From NCBI RefSeq assembly GCF_014876775.1, contig NZ_CP062310.1:1-64000 (forward strand): a DNA stretch of 64,000 nt. The letters run 5' to 3'. How positions within the stretch are numbered: position 1 is the first letter of the stretch; every line of letters starts with the position of its first letter. Below, piece after piece: positions 17,038 to 30,921 of this stretch. This DNA is from Infirmifilum lucidum. GTDB lineage: Archaea > Thermoproteota > Thermoprotei > Thermofilales > Thermofilaceae. The notes beneath the pieces were generated by a model, which worked only from the letters and a program-made list of their open reading frames with translations, searched no databases and had not been told where the DNA came from. The position numbers and the translations under genes were made by a program.

Positions 17038-17667
17038 GTGGAGGAGAGGTTGTATAAGGTGAGCGAGGCGGCCAAGCGGCTGGGCATTTCGCGGGTCACT
17101 CTCAGGTCTTGGATTAGGCAGGGAAAAATCGCCGCTAAGAGGGTTGGTAAGCTCTGGATGATCCCCGAGGGCGAGATAATCCGCATACTGGGTGGAGGGT
17201 CTCCTGAGGGCGGGCGCGCGGTAATCTACGCTAGAGTCTCCAGTAGGAAACAAGAAATTGATGGCGACCTCGAACGGCAGGTGGAGAGGCTTAGACTGTA
17301 CGCCTCCGCGAGGGGGTATAAGGTCGTGGGCGTCGTGACTGATGTGGCCAGCGGGCTCAACGAGGATAGGGAGGGTCTTGAGAGGGTCATGGAGATGGCC
17401 AAAGCCAAGCAATTCGATATTCTCCTCGTGGAGTTTAGGGACAGGCTCGCCCGCTTCGGCTTCGAGTACTTGAGGAGGTACTTCGAGGCCTTCGGTGTGA
17501 GGGTGGAGGCCGTTGAGGAAGGCGAGGAGAAAAGCTATATGGAGGAGCTCGTTGAGGACTTCGCCTCGATAATTACCAGCTTCGCTGCCGAGATATACGG
17601 GAAGAGGTCTAGGAAATTTCAAGAAGTCAAGAGGTACGTGAGGAATGTTATTGGAGAGAACGATTAA
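17038..17667 (+). CDS. tnpA: IS607-type transposase TnpA, serine recombinase
   Basis: About 209 residues. The N-terminal MerR-like helix-turn-helix is LYKVSEAAKRLGISRVTLRS; the resolvase domain begins AVIYARVSSRKQ, where Ser of RVSS is the nucleophile, and continues with DILLVEFRDRLARFGFEYL, holding conserved catalytic Arg residues. The protein catalyses cut and rejoin through a Ser-DNA link. Start GTG 17038 fits the TATA at 16999-17010; a TTG at 17050 is the alternative. The longer open frame upstream (from 16687) lies in the pilin gene and is not part of it. Its end overlaps tnpB by 23 nt. It appears intact. Confidence 0.92.
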   Translation: MEERLYKVSEAAKRLGISRVTLRSWIRQGKIAAKRVGKLWMIPEGEIIRILGGGSPEGGRAVIYARVSSRKQEIDGDLERQVERLRLYASARGYKVVGVVTDVASGLNEDREGLERVMEMAKAKQFDILLVEFRDRLARFGFEYLRRYFEAFGVRVEAVEEGEEKSYMEELVEDFASIITSFAAEIYGKRSRKFQEVKRYVRNVIGEND

Positions 17668-18934
17668 GCTGAAGCTGGTACCGCTCGATACGGAGAGCAG
17701 GAGGCTGTTGCATGATTTGCTCAAGAAATACGCCGAGTTGCTGGCCGAGGCTCAGAGGCTCGTCGTAGAGCTGGACATTAGGAGCGTTAAAAGGGCCCAT
17801 GAGGCGTTATATAAGCTCTTGCGGGAGATGCACCGCGAGCTCCACAATAAATACGCCGAGGAGGCCTACAGGAGGGCCTTGGCCAATTACCGCTCGTACC
17901 TAAAGCTCAAGAGAAAATGGGAGAAGAGATTGAGGAGGCTAGGCTTCGAGGAGCCGAGGCCGCCCTCGGCCGAGGGCAATAAGGTCATCGACCTACATAT
18001 TTCCGCATTCCGCTTAAGCCCCCCTCTGTTGGAGGTATCTTACGGCGGCGGGAAGACCATGAAGTTCTTGGCGATGCCGAACCCCCTCTTGGCCAAATAC
18101 GCCGGGTGGCGCATCGGCAACTCGAAAATCCTAGTGGACAAGGGAAGCGCGTACTTGTTCCTAACGGTTAGGCGGAATGTTGAGCCCGAGGCCCGTCCCA
18201 ATAGGATATACGTCGACGTCAATGAGTCCAGCATCGATTTGCTTGTTGCCGATTGGGGGCACGGCCTCGGCCTATTCTTAAGCGTGATGCATGAAGGCAA
18301 GGAGATCAGGAGGAGGTACCGCATCTTAAGGCGGAGTATTCAGAAGAAGGTGCGCGAGATAAGGAGAAGGAATCAGCTCCTCAGAAAATACGGCAAAAGG
18401 GAGAGGGAGAGGGTGAACCAAGCGGTGAGGAGGGCCGCCAAACTCATGGCCGACTTGGCGCTGGCGTATAACGCCGACGTGGTCGTGGAAAAGCTCAAGG
18501 ATGTGACTTGGAGGCCTAGGGGCAATGGCGAGCTGAACTATCGCTTGAGGAGCCTCCCCTACAGGAGGATCGTGGAATCGATAAGGGATAAGGCGGCGGA
18601 GCGCGGGGTAAGGGTTCTCGAGGTGGACGCCAGGAATACGTCGGTAGAGTGCCCTATTTGCGGCCACGCGGACAAGAAGAACCGGAAGTCCACTACAGAG
18701 TTCAGGTGCACGAAGTGTGGCTTCGAGCTGCACGCCCAACTAGTCCCCACGGTAAACCTGGCCCGCAGGTGTGAGGGCGTAGTGGCCAGACCCGCGGGCC
18801 AGGAGGCCCTCCTAACTCTCGAGGAGGCCCCAGTGGTGTCCTCCGGTGAAGCCCCCCATGACCCGGTGAACCATGACCCGGCGAGGGGGAAGGCCCTGCC
18901 TGTACCCAAAACAGCCAAAATAATCAAAATATAA
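17645..18934 (+). CDS. tnpB: IS607-associated TnpB, third RuvC Asp replaced
   Basis: 429 residues. TnpB proteins are RNA-guided nucleases that help transposons persist. The RuvC residues are Asp191 (IYVDVNESSIDLL), Glu282 (VVVEKLKDV) and, at the third position, Gln365: the segment ELHAQLVPTVNLARR aligns with ADRDLIAALNI of the second TnpB in this window, putting Gln where the catalytic Asp belongs. The zinc ribbon C336-C339-C355-C358 (CPICG, CTKCG) is intact. A Pro-rich tail of about 55 residues follows. Nuclease activity is doubtful; the guide RNA would be expected from the 3' end and beyond. Confidence 0.9.
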   Translation: MLLERTIKLKLVPLDTESRRLLHDLLKKYAELLAEAQRLVVELDIRSVKRAHEALYKLLREMHRELHNKYAEEAYRRALANYRSYLKLKRKWEKRLRRLGFEEPRPPSAEGNKVIDLHISAFRLSPPLLEVSYGGGKTMKFLAMPNPLLAKYAGWRIGNSKILVDKGSAYLFLTVRRNVEPEARPNRIYVDVNESSIDLLVADWGHGLGLFLSVMHEGKEIRRRYRILRRSIQKKVREIRRRNQLLRKYGKRERERVNQAVRRAAKLMADLALAYNADVVVEKLKDVTWRPRGNGELNYRLRSLPYRRIVESIRDKAAERGVRVLEVDARNTSVECPICGHADKKNRKSTTEFRCTKCGFELHAQLVPTVNLARRCEGVVARPAGQEALLTLEEAPVVSSGEAPHDPVNHDPARGKALPVPKTAKIIKI

Positions 18935-21814: not shown

Positions 21815-22222
21815 GTGCCTCTAAATAGGGACTACATCGAGGCGAGAGTTAGGGAGATCAACGACGCTATATCTCTTCTCAGGGATCTCTCCTCTAGGGA
21901 CTTCGACAGTCTCTCACTATATGAGAGGCTGTCCATGAGGTACTTAGTGATACAGCTCGTCGAGGCGGCTTCAGGCATATGCCTCCACATCCTTATAGAG
22001 CTGTTCGGCGAGGCTATTGACAGCATGCCCGGCTGTTTCACGAGGCTGGGAGAGAAAGGCGTTCTTGAACCCGAGCTTGCGTCAAGGCTTGCTTCTTCAG
22101 CCAGGCTCAGGAACCTGCTAGTCCACAGGTACTGGAGCGTGGATGACAGGAGGGTCTTCGAGAGCGTAAAGAGGGGCTTGGCGGACTTCGAGGAGTTTGT
22201 GAGGCGGGTAAGGGGGCTCTGA
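21815..22222 (+). CDS. HEPN-domain toxin (HepT/DUF86 family)
   Basis: 135 residues, all helical. The HEPN RNase motif RX4HXY appears as RNLLVHRY near residue 108. HepT toxins cut RNA and are silenced by a partner MNT nucleotidyltransferase that adds AMP to the motif Tyr. Here the MNT gene follows directly with no gap. TATA AAAATTTAATAC (21783-21794) predicts transcription from GTG 21815, so leaderless. Appears intact. Confidence 0.85.
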   Translation: MPLNRDYIEARVREINDAISLLRDLSSRDFDSLSLYERLSMRYLVIQLVEAASGICLHILIELFGEAIDSMPGCFTRLGEKGVLEPELASRLASSARLRNLLVHRYWSVDDRRVFESVKRGLADFEEFVRRVRGL

Positions 22223-22624
22223 ATGAGGTACTACAGGCTTGACTGGAGGGAAAGGGAGGCTTTGATGGAGAAGTTGAGGGATAGAGTCTCGGCAGACGGA
22301 GGAATAGTTTTTGCCTACGTCCACGGAGGCTTCCTCAGGAGGGAGTTCTTCAGGGACGTCGACGTGGCCGTGTGGATCAGGGACGAGGGCGAAGCATTCC
22401 AGTACGCGGTTGATTTCTCTGTGAGGCTTGAGGAGGAGCTAGGCCTTCCGGTAGACGTCCAGGTTCTAAACGAGGCCCCCCTCCCGTTCAAGTTCCACGT
22501 CTTCACGGGAGGCAGGCTCATTTTCTCCAGGGATGAGGAGTTAAGGCTCAGGATCCTTGAGGGGGCCGTCAAGGAGTACCTGGACTTCAAGTTCCTGACC
22601 TCCCTCATAGCCCGCTTAGCCTAA
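22223..22624 (+). CDS. MNT nucleotidyltransferase antitoxin (MntA-like)
   Basis: 133 residues. The minimal nucleotidyltransferase pattern is FAYVHGGFLRREFFRDVDVA: Gly-Gly followed by Asp-Val-Asp. Canonical MntA has GSxARG...SDxD, so the Ser is replaced by Gly here (HGG), as in several MNT variants. It probably neutralises the HEPN toxin encoded immediately upstream by AMP transfer. ATG 22223 begins straight after the toxin's TGA. Confidence 0.85.
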   Translation: MRYYRLDWREREALMEKLRDRVSADGGIVFAYVHGGFLRREFFRDVDVAVWIRDEGEAFQYAVDFSVRLEEELGLPVDVQVLNEAPLPFKFHVFTGGRLIFSRDEELRLRILEGAVKEYLDFKFLTSLIARLA

Positions 22625-22725
22625 CTACCCCGAGCGCTCTACTAGCTTGCACACACGCCTGGCAGCCGGTTTTTCAAGGTGAAGATAACAAGCCTTATAG
22701 GGTGTCCGGGCTATTACACCTCGTG

Positions 22726-23376
22726 GAGTGTGAAGACATTCTCCCTAGGGTGAGCTCGGCTCTAGCAGAGTTAGACGCCGAGTCGACGCGGCTACTGGTA
22801 GAGGAGGCCTTGAAGGCTGGCTGCGACGCGCTCGAAGTCGCGGAGAGGGGGCTTAGGCCCGGGATGGAGGAGGTCGGCAAAAGGTTTGAGAGGGGCGAGT
22901 ACTTCCTCCCCGAGTTAATGGTCGCCGCTGATATCTTCAACAGCGTTATGCACAGCCTGCTGCTCCCCCTGATCGAGGGCAGGCGGAGCGGCTCTAGGAC
23001 GGGGAGAGTGGTTATAGGCACTGTACGCGGGGACATACACGACATTGGGAAGAACCTCGTAGCTGTAATGCTGAGGGTTAACGGCTTCGAGGTCGTAGAC
23101 TTGGGCGTCGACGTTCCACCCGAGAAGTTCGTCGAGGCTGTTAGGACGTACAAGCCCGACATACTCGGCATGAGCGCTTTACTCACGACAACGATGCTGG
23201 AGATGAAGAACGTGATAGACGCTTTGAAGTCCGCGGGGCTTAGAGACAAAGTTAGGGTGATAGTGGGCGGTGCCCCGGTCACAGAGGAGTATGCAAGGGA
23301 GGTAGGCGCCGACGCCTACGCCAGGGATGCTGTCGAGGCTGTAGAGAAGTGCAGGAAGCTACTAGAGGGGAGGTGA
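22726..23376 (+). CDS. Methyl-accepting corrinoid protein (MtmC/MtaC-like)
   Basis: About 216 residues. An N-terminal helical cap (VEEALKAGCDALEVAERGLR, PGMEEVGKRFERGEYFLPEL) precedes the B12-binding Rossmann domain, with the cobalt-ligand motif GDIHDIGKNL (DxHxxG), then SALLTTTM and GGAPVTEEYA lining the cofactor. It carries the methyl group on cobalamin between two methyltransferases. TATA CTTATAGG (22690-22697) points to GTG 22726; GTG 22702 would lie before the predicted transcript start. GGAGGT near its stop serves the downstream MtmB-like gene, 1 nt away. Confidence 0.92.
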   Translation, partial: ECEDILPRVSSALAELDAESTRLLVEEALKAGCDALEVAERGLRPGMEEVGKRFERGEYFLPELMVAADIFNSVMHSLLLPLIEGRRSGSRTGRVVIGTVRGDIHDIGKNLVAVMLRVNGFEVVDLGVDVPPEKFVEAVRTYKPDILGMSALLTTTMLEMKNVIDALKSAGLRDKVRVIVGGAPVTEEYAREVGADAYARDAVEAVEKCRKLLEGR

Positions 23377-23377
23377 C

Positions 23378-24733
23378 GTGCTCACGCCCCTAGACGTCGA
23401 GGGCAGGGCTAGGCTCGGGGAATACGTGGAGCAGAGGAAGTTCGACCTCGAGATAGTCACCAGGAGGGTGGCGGAGCTCGAGAGGGAGTACGGCGTTGTA
23501 TTTGACCCGGAGTGCCCTGTCCCCAGTGATCCGGGCCTGGGCAAGTCTGTGTTCGAGGCTGGGTTCGTCCTCGCGCTCGAGGCTGGGCTGTACGTTGTCG
23601 ATGAAAGCAGAGTGGCAAAGTTCTCGGAAGAGGAGCTAAAGGAGGCCTTGCAGTGCGCGCCGCGCGAGCTCGTCCTCGGGAGAGGGATGGACTCCCGCGT
23701 ACTTAGGGTTAGGTTGCCGGGGGACACGCAGAAACCCTTCGTGTTCGGCGGCCTCGCCGGGACGCCTGTCCCGGAGGAGTACTTCTACATTACGGCTCTC
23801 TCCTACGCTAGACAGCCACTCGTAGACGCACTTGACCACGGCAGTATGCAGGAGGTTTCAGGCGTGAGAGTTAGAGCAGGCGCTCCCAGTGAGGCAGTAG
23901 CTGGCACCAGAGAGTTGCTCTATCTGCGTAGAGCCTTAAGGGACGCGGGTAGGCCGGGGATGCACCTACTGGCGGGGGAGAGTAGTGTCTCGTCTCTGGG
24001 TAGCCTAGCAGCGATCTCTACGGGTCTACTACAGGAAGGTGACGCCCACCTCCTCCCGATACTCAACGAGCTGAAGACAGACTACTCCCAGCTGGCTAAG
24101 GCGCACGTAGGCCTCGAGAGGGGTGTGCTCGGCGCCGCTCTAGTCGACCCAATTGTCGGCGGTTTCGCGAGGGGGCCTGCTGGCTCTGCAATAGTGTCAG
24201 TCGCAGAGGCTGTCCTCTCCCTAGTCGCGTACAGGGCCGGCTACATACTCGTCCACCCAACGCACATAGTGAAGAAGGCCACCTCGACAGCCGAGTGCAT
24301 GTGGGTTCAGGTCGCCGTGGGCCTCTCGAACACGCACATGAGGCTGCCCCTAGTTGCAGACATCTGGCCCGCCTTCGGCCTCGGCACAACCGAATACCTC
24401 TACGAGATAGCCGCCAATACTATAGCTGCGACCGCCGCGGGCATGCACCTCCTGGGTCCGGTTCCGGCTAACGGCTCAGCGCCCAACGGAGGCGGGCTAG
24501 AGGCAGAGTTCATGGCCGAGGTGGGGAGGGCGTCTGCAGGGCTGAGCCCGAGCTCGGCGTGCGAGATCGTAGTCGAGCTGTACAAGAAGTACGGGGAGAA
24601 GTTGCGTAGCCCCGACTACGGGAGGCCGTTCTGGGAGCTCTACGATCCCAGAACCGCTAAGCCCCACCCGAGCTGGGTTGAGGCAGTGCACTCCGCCTTG
24701 AGAGAGCTCTCAGAGCTCGGGCTGAGGCTGTAG
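23378..24733 (+). CDS. MtmB-family methyltransferase lacking pyrrolysine
   Basis: 451 residues, about the length of monomethylamine:corrinoid methyltransferase MtmB (458), and alignable by eye over its whole length: LALEAGLYVVDESRV, FVFGGLAGTPVPEEYF, LNELKTDYSQLA, GGFARGP, and MAEVGRASAGLS near the end. In methanogen MtmB, residue 202 is pyrrolysine, encoded by UAG, 10 residues before LNELK. The matching residue here is Gln219 (CAG at 24032-24034), so no amber codon is used. It should move a methyl group from a substrate to the corrinoid protein encoded just upstream; the substrate is probably not monomethylamine. No methyltransferase II or reactivase gene is nearby. Confidence 0.85.
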   Translation: MLTPLDVEGRARLGEYVEQRKFDLEIVTRRVAELEREYGVVFDPECPVPSDPGLGKSVFEAGFVLALEAGLYVVDESRVAKFSEEELKEALQCAPRELVLGRGMDSRVLRVRLPGDTQKPFVFGGLAGTPVPEEYFYITALSYARQPLVDALDHGSMQEVSGVRVRAGAPSEAVAGTRELLYLRRALRDAGRPGMHLLAGESSVSSLGSLAAISTGLLQEGDAHLLPILNELKTDYSQLAKAHVGLERGVLGAALVDPIVGGFARGPAGSAIVSVAEAVLSLVAYRAGYILVHPTHIVKKATSTAECMWVQVAVGLSNTHMRLPLVADIWPAFGLGTTEYLYEIAANTIAATAAGMHLLGPVPANGSAPNGGGLEAEFMAEVGRASAGLSPSSACEIVVELYKKYGEKLRSPDYGRPFWELYDPRTAKPHPSWVEAVHSALRELSELGLRL

Positions 24734-26377: not shown

Positions 26378-27091
26378 CTAATAAACGTCCTTACTGGCGA
26401 GCGCCCCCGATAGAACTAGCCTAACAACGCCGTAGTTGATGGCTACAGGTAGCTCCTTCTCGAAGGACTCCCCGCTAGTCCTCACGGTTCCCAGAATGTG
26501 GCCGCACTTCCTACACTTGTAGTACACGACTTGTCCTTGAATGTACACGTCGAAGTTCTCTCTACTGCTAGCGCCGCAGGCCGGGCACTTAAAGCTCTCA
26601 TACTCCCAAGAGTAGCCGCAGAGACACGCGAGGACGAGAGCTGTCTGGGAGTAGATCCAGCCCTGCCTCTCCGAGTACACGGCTGCCGAGGGGACTAGAC
26701 CGCAGACCGGGCAACGGCCCCCGCTCCACTCGATGCCCTCTACTCTGCCTACGAGGGACTTGTAGAGTATCCTGCGCGCAACATATGAGAGGAGTGCGAG
26801 CTTCGGATCCTGCGGGAAGCCCTCTTTAAGCGCCTCTGGTGTGGCCCTAGAGCAGTCGATTTCAATGCCGTTCCTACCGAGCACGTTGAGCGCTAGCGCT
26901 AGTAGCTCGTCGACGTTCTCGAGGTTCTCCAAGTAGACTGGCCCGTCCTTTATGAATCTGGGCTTAAACCTGACGTCGACAATGCTCTTCTCTATCTCGT
27001 TATATGCCCTGAGAATCTCCTTCAATTCCATTGCACACTCTTCGTCTGGACATATCACCTGGGCTAGTTTTTCAGCCACGGGTGTTTTCAC
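26378..27091 (-). CDS. fdhE: Formate dehydrogenase accessory protein FdhE
   Basis: 237 residues. Four CxxC-type zinc or iron knuckles are visible: CPVCG, CLCG, CPACG and CRKCG, all in the C-terminal half, which is the FdhE rubredoxin-like pattern. FdhE binds the formate dehydrogenase catalytic subunit during maturation in the cytoplasm. It is divergent from the fdh operon and so shares its control region. GTG 27091 and GTG 27079 are both possible; a minus-strand TATA (TTTTTATAG, 27107-27099) would favour 27079. Confidence 0.9.
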   Translation of the reverse strand: MKTPVAEKLAQVICPDEECAMELKEILRAYNEIEKSIVDVRFKPRFIKDGPVYLENLENVDELLALALNVLGRNGIEIDCSRATPEALKEGFPQDPKLALLSYVARRILYKSLVGRVEGIEWSGGRCPVCGLVPSAAVYSERQGWIYSQTALVLACLCGYSWEYESFKCPACGASSRENFDVYIQGQVVYYKCRKCGHILGTVRTSGESFEKELPVAINYGVVRLVLSGALASKDVY

Positions 27092-27381: not shown

Positions 27382-30300
27382 ATGAGCCTGGAGCAGTCTG
27401 TCCTAAATAGGAGAGTGTTCCTGAAGCTCGCAACAGTAGCCGCCGCGGCAATATCCCTCTCATCTACTCCTGTACTGGCTGACACGCCGGTTCCCTTCAA
27501 GGAGTGGAGGACTAGGTGGGGTTTAGGAGAGGTTGGAGGCAAGACGGACATTGTAAAGGCTAGAGTCGCTCCAGTGATATGCCCGTACTGCTCGTTTGGC
27601 TGCAGCATAGACTTCTACACGGTAGGCGATAGAATTGTATGGACTACTGGTTCCCCGGACTCCTACATCAATAGAGGGGCTCTGTGCCCAAAGGGTGTGT
27701 CGGCGTTCCAGATAGTCGAGAATCCTAGGCGCGTGCTCTACCCGCTTATAAGGACAGGGCCTAAACCACCTGTAGAAGAGATACTTAGCGCGAAGTCGTG
27801 GGACGACTTAGTAGCGCTCGTGAAGAAGTATCCTCCCCGGTGGAGAGTTGCCTCCTGGGACGAGGCGTTCAGGTACATAGCTAGCAGGTTGAAGGCCATC
27901 ATGGACGAGTACCGCTCCAAGACGGGCGCGCCGTTCCAGAAAGACGGCACGTACTACATCGGCAGTGCAACCCCGGTGCAAATCATAGGCTCCTCAATAC
28001 TCGTCAACGAGGAGGCATTCCTCACGAAGAAGCTCTCAATATACCTCGGGACACACAACATGGACTCGCAGTACCGCAAGTGCCACTCATCTACGGTCGC
28101 CGCTCTAGCCGCTACCTACGGCTGGGGCGCCGAGACCGCCGCTATTGAGGACTTGTATTCCTCGGACGTCATTCTGTTCTTCTCGAACCCGGCCGAGGCG
28201 CACCCACTCTCGTTCCAGCACTTCCTCAAGGCTAAACAGGAGAGAGGCACAATCCTCATCACGTTCGACCCCCGCCTGTCGAGGACGGCGATGGTTTCGG
28301 ACATATGGGTGCCCTTCAGGCCCGGTAGCGACACGGCAATACTTCTCTACATACTGCACTACGCTTTCCTCGAGAGGAACCCGCCAATAGACCAGCTAGA
28401 CGAGTTCAAGAGGCTCATGTCCCGGTGGAACATAACGCAAGCAGACTTAGACGAGCTCAAAGACCTGCTGTCCAACTACACAGCCGAGGAGGTATCAAGG
28501 ATCTCGGGCGTCCCGGTTGAGACCCTCAGGAACGTCGCCAAGATATACGTCGAGAGGAGCGGCGTCGTCACGGGCCACAAGAAGCACGGGATAATACAGT
28601 GGGCCATGGGCATGACCCAGCACACCAACGCTACGGTCAACATTATCAGGGCTGCTGCCATAGTCCAGCTCCTTCTGGGGAACGTCGGGTACCCTGGAGG
28701 CGGGGCGCACCCGTTCAGGGGGCACAGCAACGTTCAGGGGGCTACAGACATCCAGGGAGCCGGGAACGCTGCACTAAGCGGCTACCACGCACACCCAGCT
28801 AAAGCAATGGAAGTCAGGCTCTACCAGGACTGGAAACTACAGGGCATGCCCGACGCCTGGAACTGGGAGGTTCCAGACTGGGCTCTCGCTGCATTCCCAG
28901 CACTTAAGGATGCTGCCAAGAGAGGCCAGGCAAACTCAGCGAAATTGTTGCAGGTCTTCAAGTTCTACGGGTGGAGGAGGCACGAGCTACTCTGGGGCAT
29001 ATTCATAGGTACAGACCCCGAGACAGACCCCCAGAACGGGAAGGTTATAAGCGATATTCCGTTCGGCGCTGGATCCACTGAGACGACATTCGCTAGGAGG
29101 GCTCTCAACGGCGAGATCAGGGCGGCGCTCATATTCGGCGAGAACCCGGCCGTAACAAACCCCAACGCGAAAATAGTCTGGGCGGCGCTAGCGTCCCTAC
29201 AGCTACTCGTCGTCGCAGATATTTTTGAGACCGAGACCGCCTGGTTTGCCGACGTTCTGCTACCTTCAGCTAGCTTCGCTGAGAAGGAGGGCACGCGCAC
29301 GAACAGCAACAGAGTGATTCAGTGGACGTTTAAGGCCCTAGAGCCTAAAGGGAACTCCAGGCCAGACTACTGGATAATTGTAAACCTCTTCAAGTACCTC
29401 TGGAGGGCAGGCGTCATACAGCTCCCGAGCCAGCTCGTCGGCAAGAGGAAGGAGAGAGTAGCAATAAGGAGGGGCGATAGGATCTTCGAGCTGTACTACC
29501 GCGAAATTGCGCCAGAGAAGTCCTGGGACTACAGCGGTGGCACTGGAGCGGCGAGCCCTGTTAGCGCCATTGAGGCGGAGGTTAACCCCAGGATTATAAA
29601 CAAGGAGATCAACTTTGCAACCCTAATCTACGACGGGATGTACAACCCCGTTAGAGACGAGTTTACCCCGATGAGGAGAGACAAGAGGATTAGAGACGTA
29701 GGCGAGATCGACGGGTATTTTGCCCAGAAGTTCACTCTGTACAAGGACTGGGGCTGGAGCTGGCCCCAGAACGTGCGGATAATGTACGCCCTAGACGCCC
29801 TGGCAGTGATGGAGGGCCAGCCCGTAAAGGTAGTCGTGGGCGGCAAGGAGTACACCGTGACAGGCGAGACGGGCGAGGTCGTCGACGAGTACACTGGTGG
29901 CTACAGGCCTGCATACCTGCCGGGCCATAGCTGGAGCCTGCCCAAGTACTTCAAGAGGAGACTCAGCAACATATCGGATCTCTGGGCGGGGCTCGACATG
30001 GTAAGGTTCATCAGGACTGGCGAGCTTGTCTTCCCAGAGAAGAGCCTCGTAATAGACAAGGATGGAGCCCCGACGCCTGTGTCCTTTGAGGAGTTCGCCA
30101 GTCTCACTGGGATGAGGTTTGTGTGGGCTAACGACGGTCTCTACTGGGACGAGGACACAACAGTCAAGGCAAAGGCTGCCGTGAAGTACTCCTTCTTCCC
30201 AGGCGACAGCTGGAGCAAGTACAAGGACACTTACGCGGCTTTCAGGCAGAAGCTCAAGGCCTACTACGATCAGACTGGAAGCCTCAAGCAGGCAGTCCTG

Positions 30301-30921
30301 AATGTCATTAGGGACATGGGCGGCTGGTACAAGGGGTACAACTTCTCCTACCCGATACACACTGAGCCTGCAGAGTCCCCGGACATCGAGCTGGCGCTGA
30401 AATACCCGACACTGGCCTTCCTAAACCCCTTTAACCTGCAGGTGCTAAACGAGCAGCCCGACGTCGTCAAGGGCAAGCCCGTGGGCCTTGCGCTGGAGCC
30501 GAAGGATCTGTCTGGGGAGCAGGGCGTCCTCGTCGCTCTCACAAGCAACAGGCTTACTGAGATGTGGCACAGCGGTAGCATGACGAGAAATATCCCCTAC
30601 CTCGTACAGCTCGTGCCAGAGCCCTTCGTCTACATTAATGAGAAGCTCGCAAAGAAGCTCGGCATCAAGTCAGGCGACCTAGTGGAGATCGTCACGGCTA
30701 GAGGTTCGATAAGAATGAAGGCTTTTGTCACGAAGGGCGAGGCCTACCTCAAAATGGGAGGCTCTGAACTACCAGTAGTCAACGTTGTCTGGCACTTCAG
30801 CTTCCTAGGGCAAGCTACAGGCCCTCAGGGGAACTTCATCACGCCAGACGCTGTGGACGTTGTGACAACTATACAGGAGTCTAAGGCTTGGATCGGTGTT
30901 GTCAGGAAAGCTTCTGGGTGA
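27382..30921 (+). CDS. fdhA: Formate dehydrogenase alpha subunit, molybdopterin-dependent, Cys type
   Basis: Oxidises formate to CO2. 1179 residues, longer than FdnG/FdoG (about 1015). The leader NRRVFLKLATVAAAAISL is a twin-Arg Tat signal, placing the mature protein outside the membrane. The [4Fe-4S] motif uses C67, C70, C74 and C102 (CPYCSFGC, LCPKG). The metal ligand is Cys234 (RKCHSSTVAALAATYGWGAE) at the site where E. coli has selenocysteine, encoded here by TGC at 28081. C-terminal molybdopterin dinucleotide-binding domain includes SGSMTRN. First of three structural genes with short gaps. Confidence 0.95.
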   Translation: MSLEQSVLNRRVFLKLATVAAAAISLSSTPVLADTPVPFKEWRTRWGLGEVGGKTDIVKARVAPVICPYCSFGCSIDFYTVGDRIVWTTGSPDSYINRGALCPKGVSAFQIVENPRRVLYPLIRTGPKPPVEEILSAKSWDDLVALVKKYPPRWRVASWDEAFRYIASRLKAIMDEYRSKTGAPFQKDGTYYIGSATPVQIIGSSILVNEEAFLTKKLSIYLGTHNMDSQYRKCHSSTVAALAATYGWGAETAAIEDLYSSDVILFFSNPAEAHPLSFQHFLKAKQERGTILITFDPRLSRTAMVSDIWVPFRPGSDTAILLYILHYAFLERNPPIDQLDEFKRLMSRWNITQADLDELKDLLSNYTAEEVSRISGVPVETLRNVAKIYVERSGVVTGHKKHGIIQWAMGMTQHTNATVNIIRAAAIVQLLLGNVGYPGGGAHPFRGHSNVQGATDIQGAGNAALSGYHAHPAKAMEVRLYQDWKLQGMPDAWNWEVPDWALAAFPALKDAAKRGQANSAKLLQVFKFYGWRRHELLWGIFIGTDPETDPQNGKVISDIPFGAGSTETTFARRALNGEIRAALIFGENPAVTNPNAKIVWAALASLQLLVVADIFETETAWFADVLLPSASFAEKEGTRTNSNRVIQWTFKALEPKGNSRPDYWIIVNLFKYLWRAGVIQLPSQLVGKRKERVAIRRGDRIFELYYREIAPEKSWDYSGGTGAASPVSAIEAEVNPRIINKEINFATLIYDGMYNPVRDEFTPMRRDKRIRDVGEIDGYFAQKFTLYKDWGWSWPQNVRIMYALDALAVMEGQPVKVVVGGKEYTVTGETGEVVDEYTGGYRPAYLPGHSWSLPKYFKRRLSNISDLWAGLDMVRFIRTGELVFPEKSLVIDKDGAPTPVSFEEFASLTGMRFVWANDGLYWDEDTTVKAKAAVKYSFFPGDSWSKYKDTYAAFRQKLKAYYDQTGSLKQAVLNVIRDMGGWYKGYNFSYPIHTEPAESPDIELALKYPTLAFLNPFNLQVLNEQPDVVKGKPVGLALEPKDLSGEQGVLVALTSNRLTEMWHSGSMTRNIPYLVQLVPEPFVYINEKLAKKLGIKSGDLVEIVTARGSIRMKAFVTKGEAYLKMGGSELPVVNVVWHFSFLGQATGPQGNFITPDAVDVVTTIQESKAWIGVVRKASG

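Follow-up and report, generated by a model that had tools for sequence, protein, structure and literature searches.

We propose that the corrinoid protein gene and the mtmB-like gene that lie side by side in the window (the whole stretch of 64,000 nucleotides analysed here) encode a pyrrolysine-free methyltransferase I of the MtmB type and its corrinoid partner, whose methyl groups feed homocysteine by way of a core methionine synthase (core-MetE), with the corrinoid protein being reactivated by a RamA homologue. Taken as a whole, this is the best explanation of the data and we consider it somewhat probable. In the model, the methyl donor would be activated already and would require no adduct with pyrrolysine; the MtmB-like enzyme would accept its methyl group and transfer it to the cob(I)amide of the corrinoid protein. 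The donor would most likely be a quaternary amine or, alternatively, an O-methyl compound. The cofactor that has been oxidised to cob(II)amide would be reactivated by a single ATPase of the RamA/RACo type, encoded elsewhere in the genome, and the methyl-corrinoid would pass its methyl group to homocysteine, the most likely acceptor, via the folate-independent core methionine synthase. A second corrinoid protein paired with a pyrrolysine-free MttB would probably supply the same sink from a different donor. Judged from its kinship with Thermofilum, the host, a thermophilic archaeon, is probably non-methanogenic, and the arrangement suggests that the collected methyl group is used for methionine rather than for methane. 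The preliminary description of this DNA had seen in it a pyrrolysine-free methyl-transfer system of the MtmB type in a crenarchaeote; its family, fold, corrinoid partner and RamA held, and the residue named at the pyrrolysine site, the conventional second methyltransferase and the novelty did not.

The mtmB-like gene, 23378-24733(+), starts with a GTG at 23378 and encodes a protein of 451 amino acids in an intact, full-length reading frame with no in-frame stop. The corrinoid protein gene directly upstream, 22702-23376(+), ends with the TGA at 23374-23376, leaving an intergenic gap of one base. It starts at the GTG at 22702 or possibly at that at 22723, these being the usable starts, and the start given in the preliminary description, 22726, falls on an in-frame Glu codon. 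A candidate archaeal TATA element, TTATA at 22695-22699(+), was seen by eye about 26 nt 5' of the GTG at 22723. Scans for sigma-70 promoters and terminators, both unsuited to archaea, gave no match, and neither did a plasmid search. Immediately 5' of the corrinoid gene there is a pair of the MNT-HEPN toxin-antitoxin type, 21815-22624(+), in which a HepT-like RNase gene is directly followed by a Polbeta nucleotidyltransferase gene.

That the MtmB-like protein is a full-length member of its family, as had been described, is far beyond chance. It matches PF05369 over residues 6-449 with 266.3 bits against a curated cut-off of 25 (E 6.3e-79), and over the same residues it matches the MtmB of M. 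barkeri (PDB 1L2Q) with an E value of 6.5e-61 and 31% identity. A template-free AlphaFold2 model (pLDDT 87.8) superposes on 1L2Q/1NTH/1TV2 with a TM of 0.93, the next best being MttB and MtgB at about 0.5. Membership in another TIM-barrel family is thus ruled out by the alignment to 1L2Q and the fold comparison. Weak matches to RuvB in the PDB search were taken as spurious.

The alignment around residue 202 of MtmB, which had been suggested as a check, places Pyl202 of 1L2Q opposite Leu198 of the query, encoded by CTG at 23969-23971(+), within the common block GRPGM-x-x-[Pyl]-x-x-E. The in-frame UAG of two homologues (G175 and G240) falls in the same column. The protein therefore holds no pyrrolysine, with a leucine and no stop codon at the site, as was correctly recognised before. 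The residue then named at the site, Gln219 (CAG at 24032-24034(+)), is the wrong one, because both the Pyl202 alignment and the UAG-containing homologues point to Leu198; Gln219 aligns with Thr223 of MtmB. The LNELK segment, which had been placed ten residues past the pyrrolysine position, begins 31 residues past it in both proteins. Glu229, Glu259 and Gln333 of MtmB, which we take from the structure papers to be residues of the catalytic pocket, are replaced in the query by Leu225, Ala254 and Asp328. Thus, of the two marks of a pyrrolysine-type monomethylamine methyltransferase, UAG/pyrrolysine at 202 and the set Glu229/Glu259/Gln333, neither is present. The wider pyrrolysine-free clade has a pocket signature of its own: L/I198, E201, D257, H293, H296, E306, W309, D328 and W330. 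According to a review of 2010, a hydrophobic residue at the pyrrolysine position is general in pyrrolysine-free homologues (PMC2933860).

Among 398 sampled genomes of the phylum, 47 have PF05369, and only two of these contain UAG in the gene. The latter are the MtmB genes of family f17 with an in-frame UAG at the pyrrolysine position (L002 in G175 and L003 in G240), from which it may be that MtmB of the pyrrolysine type is in use within Thermoproteota. In the family tree that had been proposed as a check, the MtmB-like proteins of Thermofilaceae form one clade of their own (support 100/100), its nearest kin being a protein in G143 and a member of a tandem pair of paralogues in family f17 (100/99). 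The pyrrolysine MtmBs, 1L2Q among them, group together at a distance (100/100). The corrinoid/mtmB-like pair is kept in 6 of the 7 sampled congeners, and almost every sampled Thermofilaceae genome with the MtmB-like gene encodes a full-length orthologue. Between congeners dN/dS is about 0.1 for both genes, and both are under purifying selection. In the window's genome (1,625,846 bases in one contig, 99.95% complete), the searches found no second PF05369 gene and no PF05369 or MttB gene interrupted by a stop codon. A dead copy beside a pyrrolysine-encoding paralogue is ruled out by the purifying selection and by the finding of no second PF05369 gene in this genome. Hence neither of the two objections that the preliminary description had raised against itself, another TIM-barrel family or such a paralogue, applied.

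The surroundings of the MtmB-like gene differ among lineages. In sister genera a split dehydratase pair of the UxaA/GarD-like kind lies directly 3' of the MtmB-like gene (L038, L039, L040, L041 and L043) and the corrinoid gene is not adjacent to it, adjoining RamA instead (L103, L104 and L105). At four loci of other lineages (L050, L051, L048 and L044) the MtmB-like genes are near ABC-transporter genes, by eye of the BMP/nucleoside uptake type, which is a possible hint of a purine- or nucleoside-like methyl donor in those lineages.

The corrinoid protein has both expected domains (PF02310, 4e-31, the Rossmann B12-binding domain; PF02607, 3e-19, the B12-binding_2 cap), and its cobalt-ligand motif, D111-x-H113-x-x-G116, is the DxHxxG that had been read before. 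Its score of 216.9 bits with TIGR02370 (methyltransferase cognate corrinoid protein) is just over the cut-off of 215.3; models of the MtgC/MtbC type also score with it, and its PDB matches are 1y80 (2e-60) and MttC 7xcn (1e-55). The reactivation protein, expected to be elsewhere, was found at genome positions 488725-490530(-) as the single RamA/RACo-type homologue, with a ferredoxin domain and the RACo middle and C-terminal ASKHA domains (PF00111, PF17650, PF17651 and PF14574), scoring below the cut-offs of both the RamA and the AcsV models. A RamA homologue is present in 47 of 47 MtmB-bearing genomes versus 132 of 398 overall or, by genus, in 19 of 19 versus 72 of 163. The second corrinoid gene is followed directly by a pyrrolysine-free MttB gene at genome positions 1408262-1410343, with MttB at 1408916-1410343.

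The second methyltransferases known so far belong to URO-D, MtrH and Pterin_bind. Profile searches of the window's genome for these three families gave no match for URO-D (MtbA/MtaA), MtrH or Pterin_bind, and the same searches gave matches in control genomes; the second methyltransferase of conventional type that had been supposed to lie elsewhere was thus not borne out. The CoM route via MtbA/MtaA, the methyl-H4MPT route via MtrH and the pterin route via AcsE/MeTr-like proteins were rejected on the lack of a URO-D, an MtrH and a Pterin_bind match in this genome, respectively. MtrH was found in none of 16 sampled family members. One congener (G072) is without MttB and MtrH and has a URO-D-like gene that adjoins RamA and a second corrinoid protein.

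A plausible acceptor enzyme is present in the genome. At genome positions 1355517-1356485 there is a single-domain MetE relative of 323 amino acids, core-MetE, which consists of the catalytic MetE domain alone and has both the H/C/E/C zinc ligands, as described for core methionine synthases (PMC7857596), and the S/D substrate residues. H197, C199, E222 and C285 (zinc) together with S10 and D156 (substrate) are invariant in 11 sequences, and a profile comparison with PDB structures matches the catalytic half of MetE at 1e-13. The Pfam score is low (27.5 bits), and with NF002119 the protein reaches 60.6 bits against a cut-off of 258, so that its branch is separate or divergent; no other PF01717 protein was found in the genome. 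From its residues and the profile match, core-MetE would be active as a methionine synthase. In vitro, core methionine synthases accept methylcobalamin as methyl donor; in vivo its place is probably taken by methyl-corrinoid proteins (PMC7005905, PMC7857596).

Orthologues of core-MetE (E <= 1e-20) occur in 71 genomes, with RamA in 61 of them. Seven genomes, representing five families, have core-MetE within a few kb of RamA, where 0.8 would be expected by random placement in a flat 1.5-Mb genome with relatedness ignored. In a genome of another Thermoproteota family (G373, L096:5305-10188) core-MetE, RamA, the corrinoid gene and a pyrrolysine-free MttB gene form, in that order, one tight operon; this points more clearly than any other finding to methionine as the destination of methyl groups taken up by an MttB-type enzyme. 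In G357 the corrinoid and MttB genes sit between RamA and core-MetE; in G365 the order is core-MetE, RamA, corrinoid and URO-D; in G381, G044 and G002 core-MetE adjoins RamA and the corrinoid gene with MtrH as the neighbour; and in G375 RamA adjoins core-MetE. Since these clusters carry MttB, URO-D or MtrH, the donor enzyme is exchangeable and the core-MetE/RamA/corrinoid core is constant in other Thermoproteota.

The weakest step of the model is that, by analogy with these clusters, both the MtmB-like and the MttB-like enzyme encoded in the window's genome would serve this same core as donor modules. Because the mtmB/corrinoid pair (at 23 kb), core-MetE (at 1356 kb) and RamA (at 489 kb) are not neighbours in this genome, the acceptor link is drawn by elimination and by analogy with the other donor modules. 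Homocysteine would be the most likely acceptor for the pair since the families of CoM- and pterin-linked second methyltransferases were undetected in the genome, and the corrinoid protein would presumably contact core-MetE directly. Within 10 kb of a core-MetE gene, a PF05369 gene was seen just once (G234, L114; 9.8 kb), and it belongs to a different MtmB clade; in one genome that is 79% complete (G312) MtmB and RamA are present and no match to core-MetE was found.

Other explanations are to be weighed, with regard to both the acceptor and the donor. The pair might act in catabolism, demethylating quaternary amines as MtqBC or MtgBC do, with the methyl group entering energy metabolism on a carrier such as CoM, a modified pterin or CoFeSP via a second methyltransferase that the profiles missed. 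This is unlikely, with a chance that is still to be reckoned with: MtqB, the only characterised pyrrolysine-free MtmB, feeds CoM methylation (PMC13044021), and the scores of the corrinoid protein with models of the MtgC/MtbC type would agree, but the lack of any URO-D, MtrH or Pterin_bind match in a one-contig genome of such completeness, with controls that matched, argues against it. As to the donor, instead of an amine it could be a sugar acid or hydroxy acid that carries an O-methyl group, a possibility that we regard as quite improbable and that would be compatible with the donor-to-homocysteine pathway. The order MtmB, UxaA_N, UxaA_C in five sister-genus genomes (G183, G200, G236, G275 and G347), with an exporter-like (ABC) gene adjoining in four of the five, usually upstream, is as if a demethylated product were then dehydrated, and the split altronate/galactarate-dehydratase-like pair matches GD_AH_C with 1.7e-61. 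However, in the window's genus the MtmB-like gene has no such dehydratase genes next to it, so that the link may be lineage-specific, and a cation would likewise fit the pocket, which is acidic and aromatic (D328, W330).

Two further readings concern the enzyme itself. Family relationship alone would speak for an active monomethylamine methyltransferase that does without pyrrolysine, but none of Pyl202, Glu229, Glu259 and Gln333 of MtmB is retained and the monomethylamine activity of MtqB is slight (PMC13044021), making it very improbable. For a decayed or non-catalytic remnant no support was found, and with the intact reading frame, the low dN/dS in both genes and the full-length orthologues in nearly all sampled carriers, this reading is hardly credible.

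To our knowledge, pyrrolysine-free MtmBs are numerous and only one of them, in a methanogen, has a known function. The query resembles MtmB1 of Methanosarcina barkeri in its full-length homology, identity and fold and differs from it in the pyrrolysine site and the three pocket residues given above. MtgB/MtgC is a pyrrolysine-free system of the MttB superfamily that acts on glycine betaine; it has the same logic of corrinoid methyl transfer without pyrrolysine and a related corrinoid protein, whereas MtgB is from a different methyltransferase family (TM about 0.5) and the window's genome has a pyrrolysine-free MttB of its own. For MtqB of Methanococcoides methylutens Q3c, a pyrrolysine-free MtmB homologue, demethylation of tetramethylammonium and of choline was demonstrated in 2026; MtqB/MtqC is likewise a member of the MtmB family with a cognate corrinoid protein, in contrast from a methanogen and with CoM as the acceptor via MtqA/MtbA (PMC13044021). 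The branch of MtqB is reported to be near the pyrrolysine MtmBs (PMC13044021), whereas the Thermofilaceae clade is far from them in our tree, which was built from sequences other than MtqB.

On the acceptor side, MesA, MesB and MesC are also single-domain MetE proteins with zinc and homocysteine ligands that are thought to take methyl groups from corrinoid proteins (PMC7857596, PMC7005905). The survey that described them links them to MtrA or CoFeSP, and among Thermoprotei it found only split MetE (PMC7857596); by contrast, the core-MetE of Thermoproteota is linked to RamA, corrinoid proteins of the MttC/MtmC type and methyltransferase I modules. The MtgC/MtgD system of Ruegeria has a corrinoid protein common to glycine betaine demethylation and methionine synthesis, differing in that it is from an aerobic marine bacterium with another methyltransferase set, not MtmB with core-MetE (PMC12478193). 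A pyrrolysine-free MtmB as such is not the novelty it was taken for, as such MtmBs, and pyrrolysine-free MttBs in Thermofilum, were noted in 2010 (PMC2933860) and one, MtqB, was characterised in 2026 (PMC13044021). The new part appears to be the pathway around it, and in the open-licence literature no paper was found in which core-MetE is joined to an MtmB or MttB from Thermoproteota.

In the complete genome neither of the usual acceptors, CoM or pterin, was detected and a plausible anabolic acceptor is present, and thus the route from donor to methionine is testable with four defined proteins. If true, it would give a function to many orphan archaeal MtmB and MttB genes, explain the retention of RamA in probably non-methanogenic archaea and show where folate-independent methionine synthases obtain their methyl groups in organisms other than methanogens and acetogens. 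More tentatively, and with a probability that we put a little short of even, Thermofilaceae would make methionine without a pterin methyl donor, from environmental or cellular methyl compounds, by passing methyl groups from pyrrolysine-free MtmB or MttB to corrinoid proteins kept active by RamA and on to core-MetE, in a scheme that is modular across Thermoproteota with interchangeable donor enzymes.

It is also noted that near the corrinoid/mtmB-like pair there is a locus of the formate-dehydrogenase type, made up of a molybdopterin oxidoreductase of 1179 amino acids with a Tat-like N-terminus (PF00384), 27382-30921(+), and a divergent zinc-ribbon protein, 26378-27091(-), which is FdhE-like by eye and has no Pfam or NCBIfam match. 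On the other side, 17645-18934(+) is a reading frame of 429 amino acids that by eye resembles a transposon protein of the TnpB type, with a CxxC zinc motif near its C-terminus.
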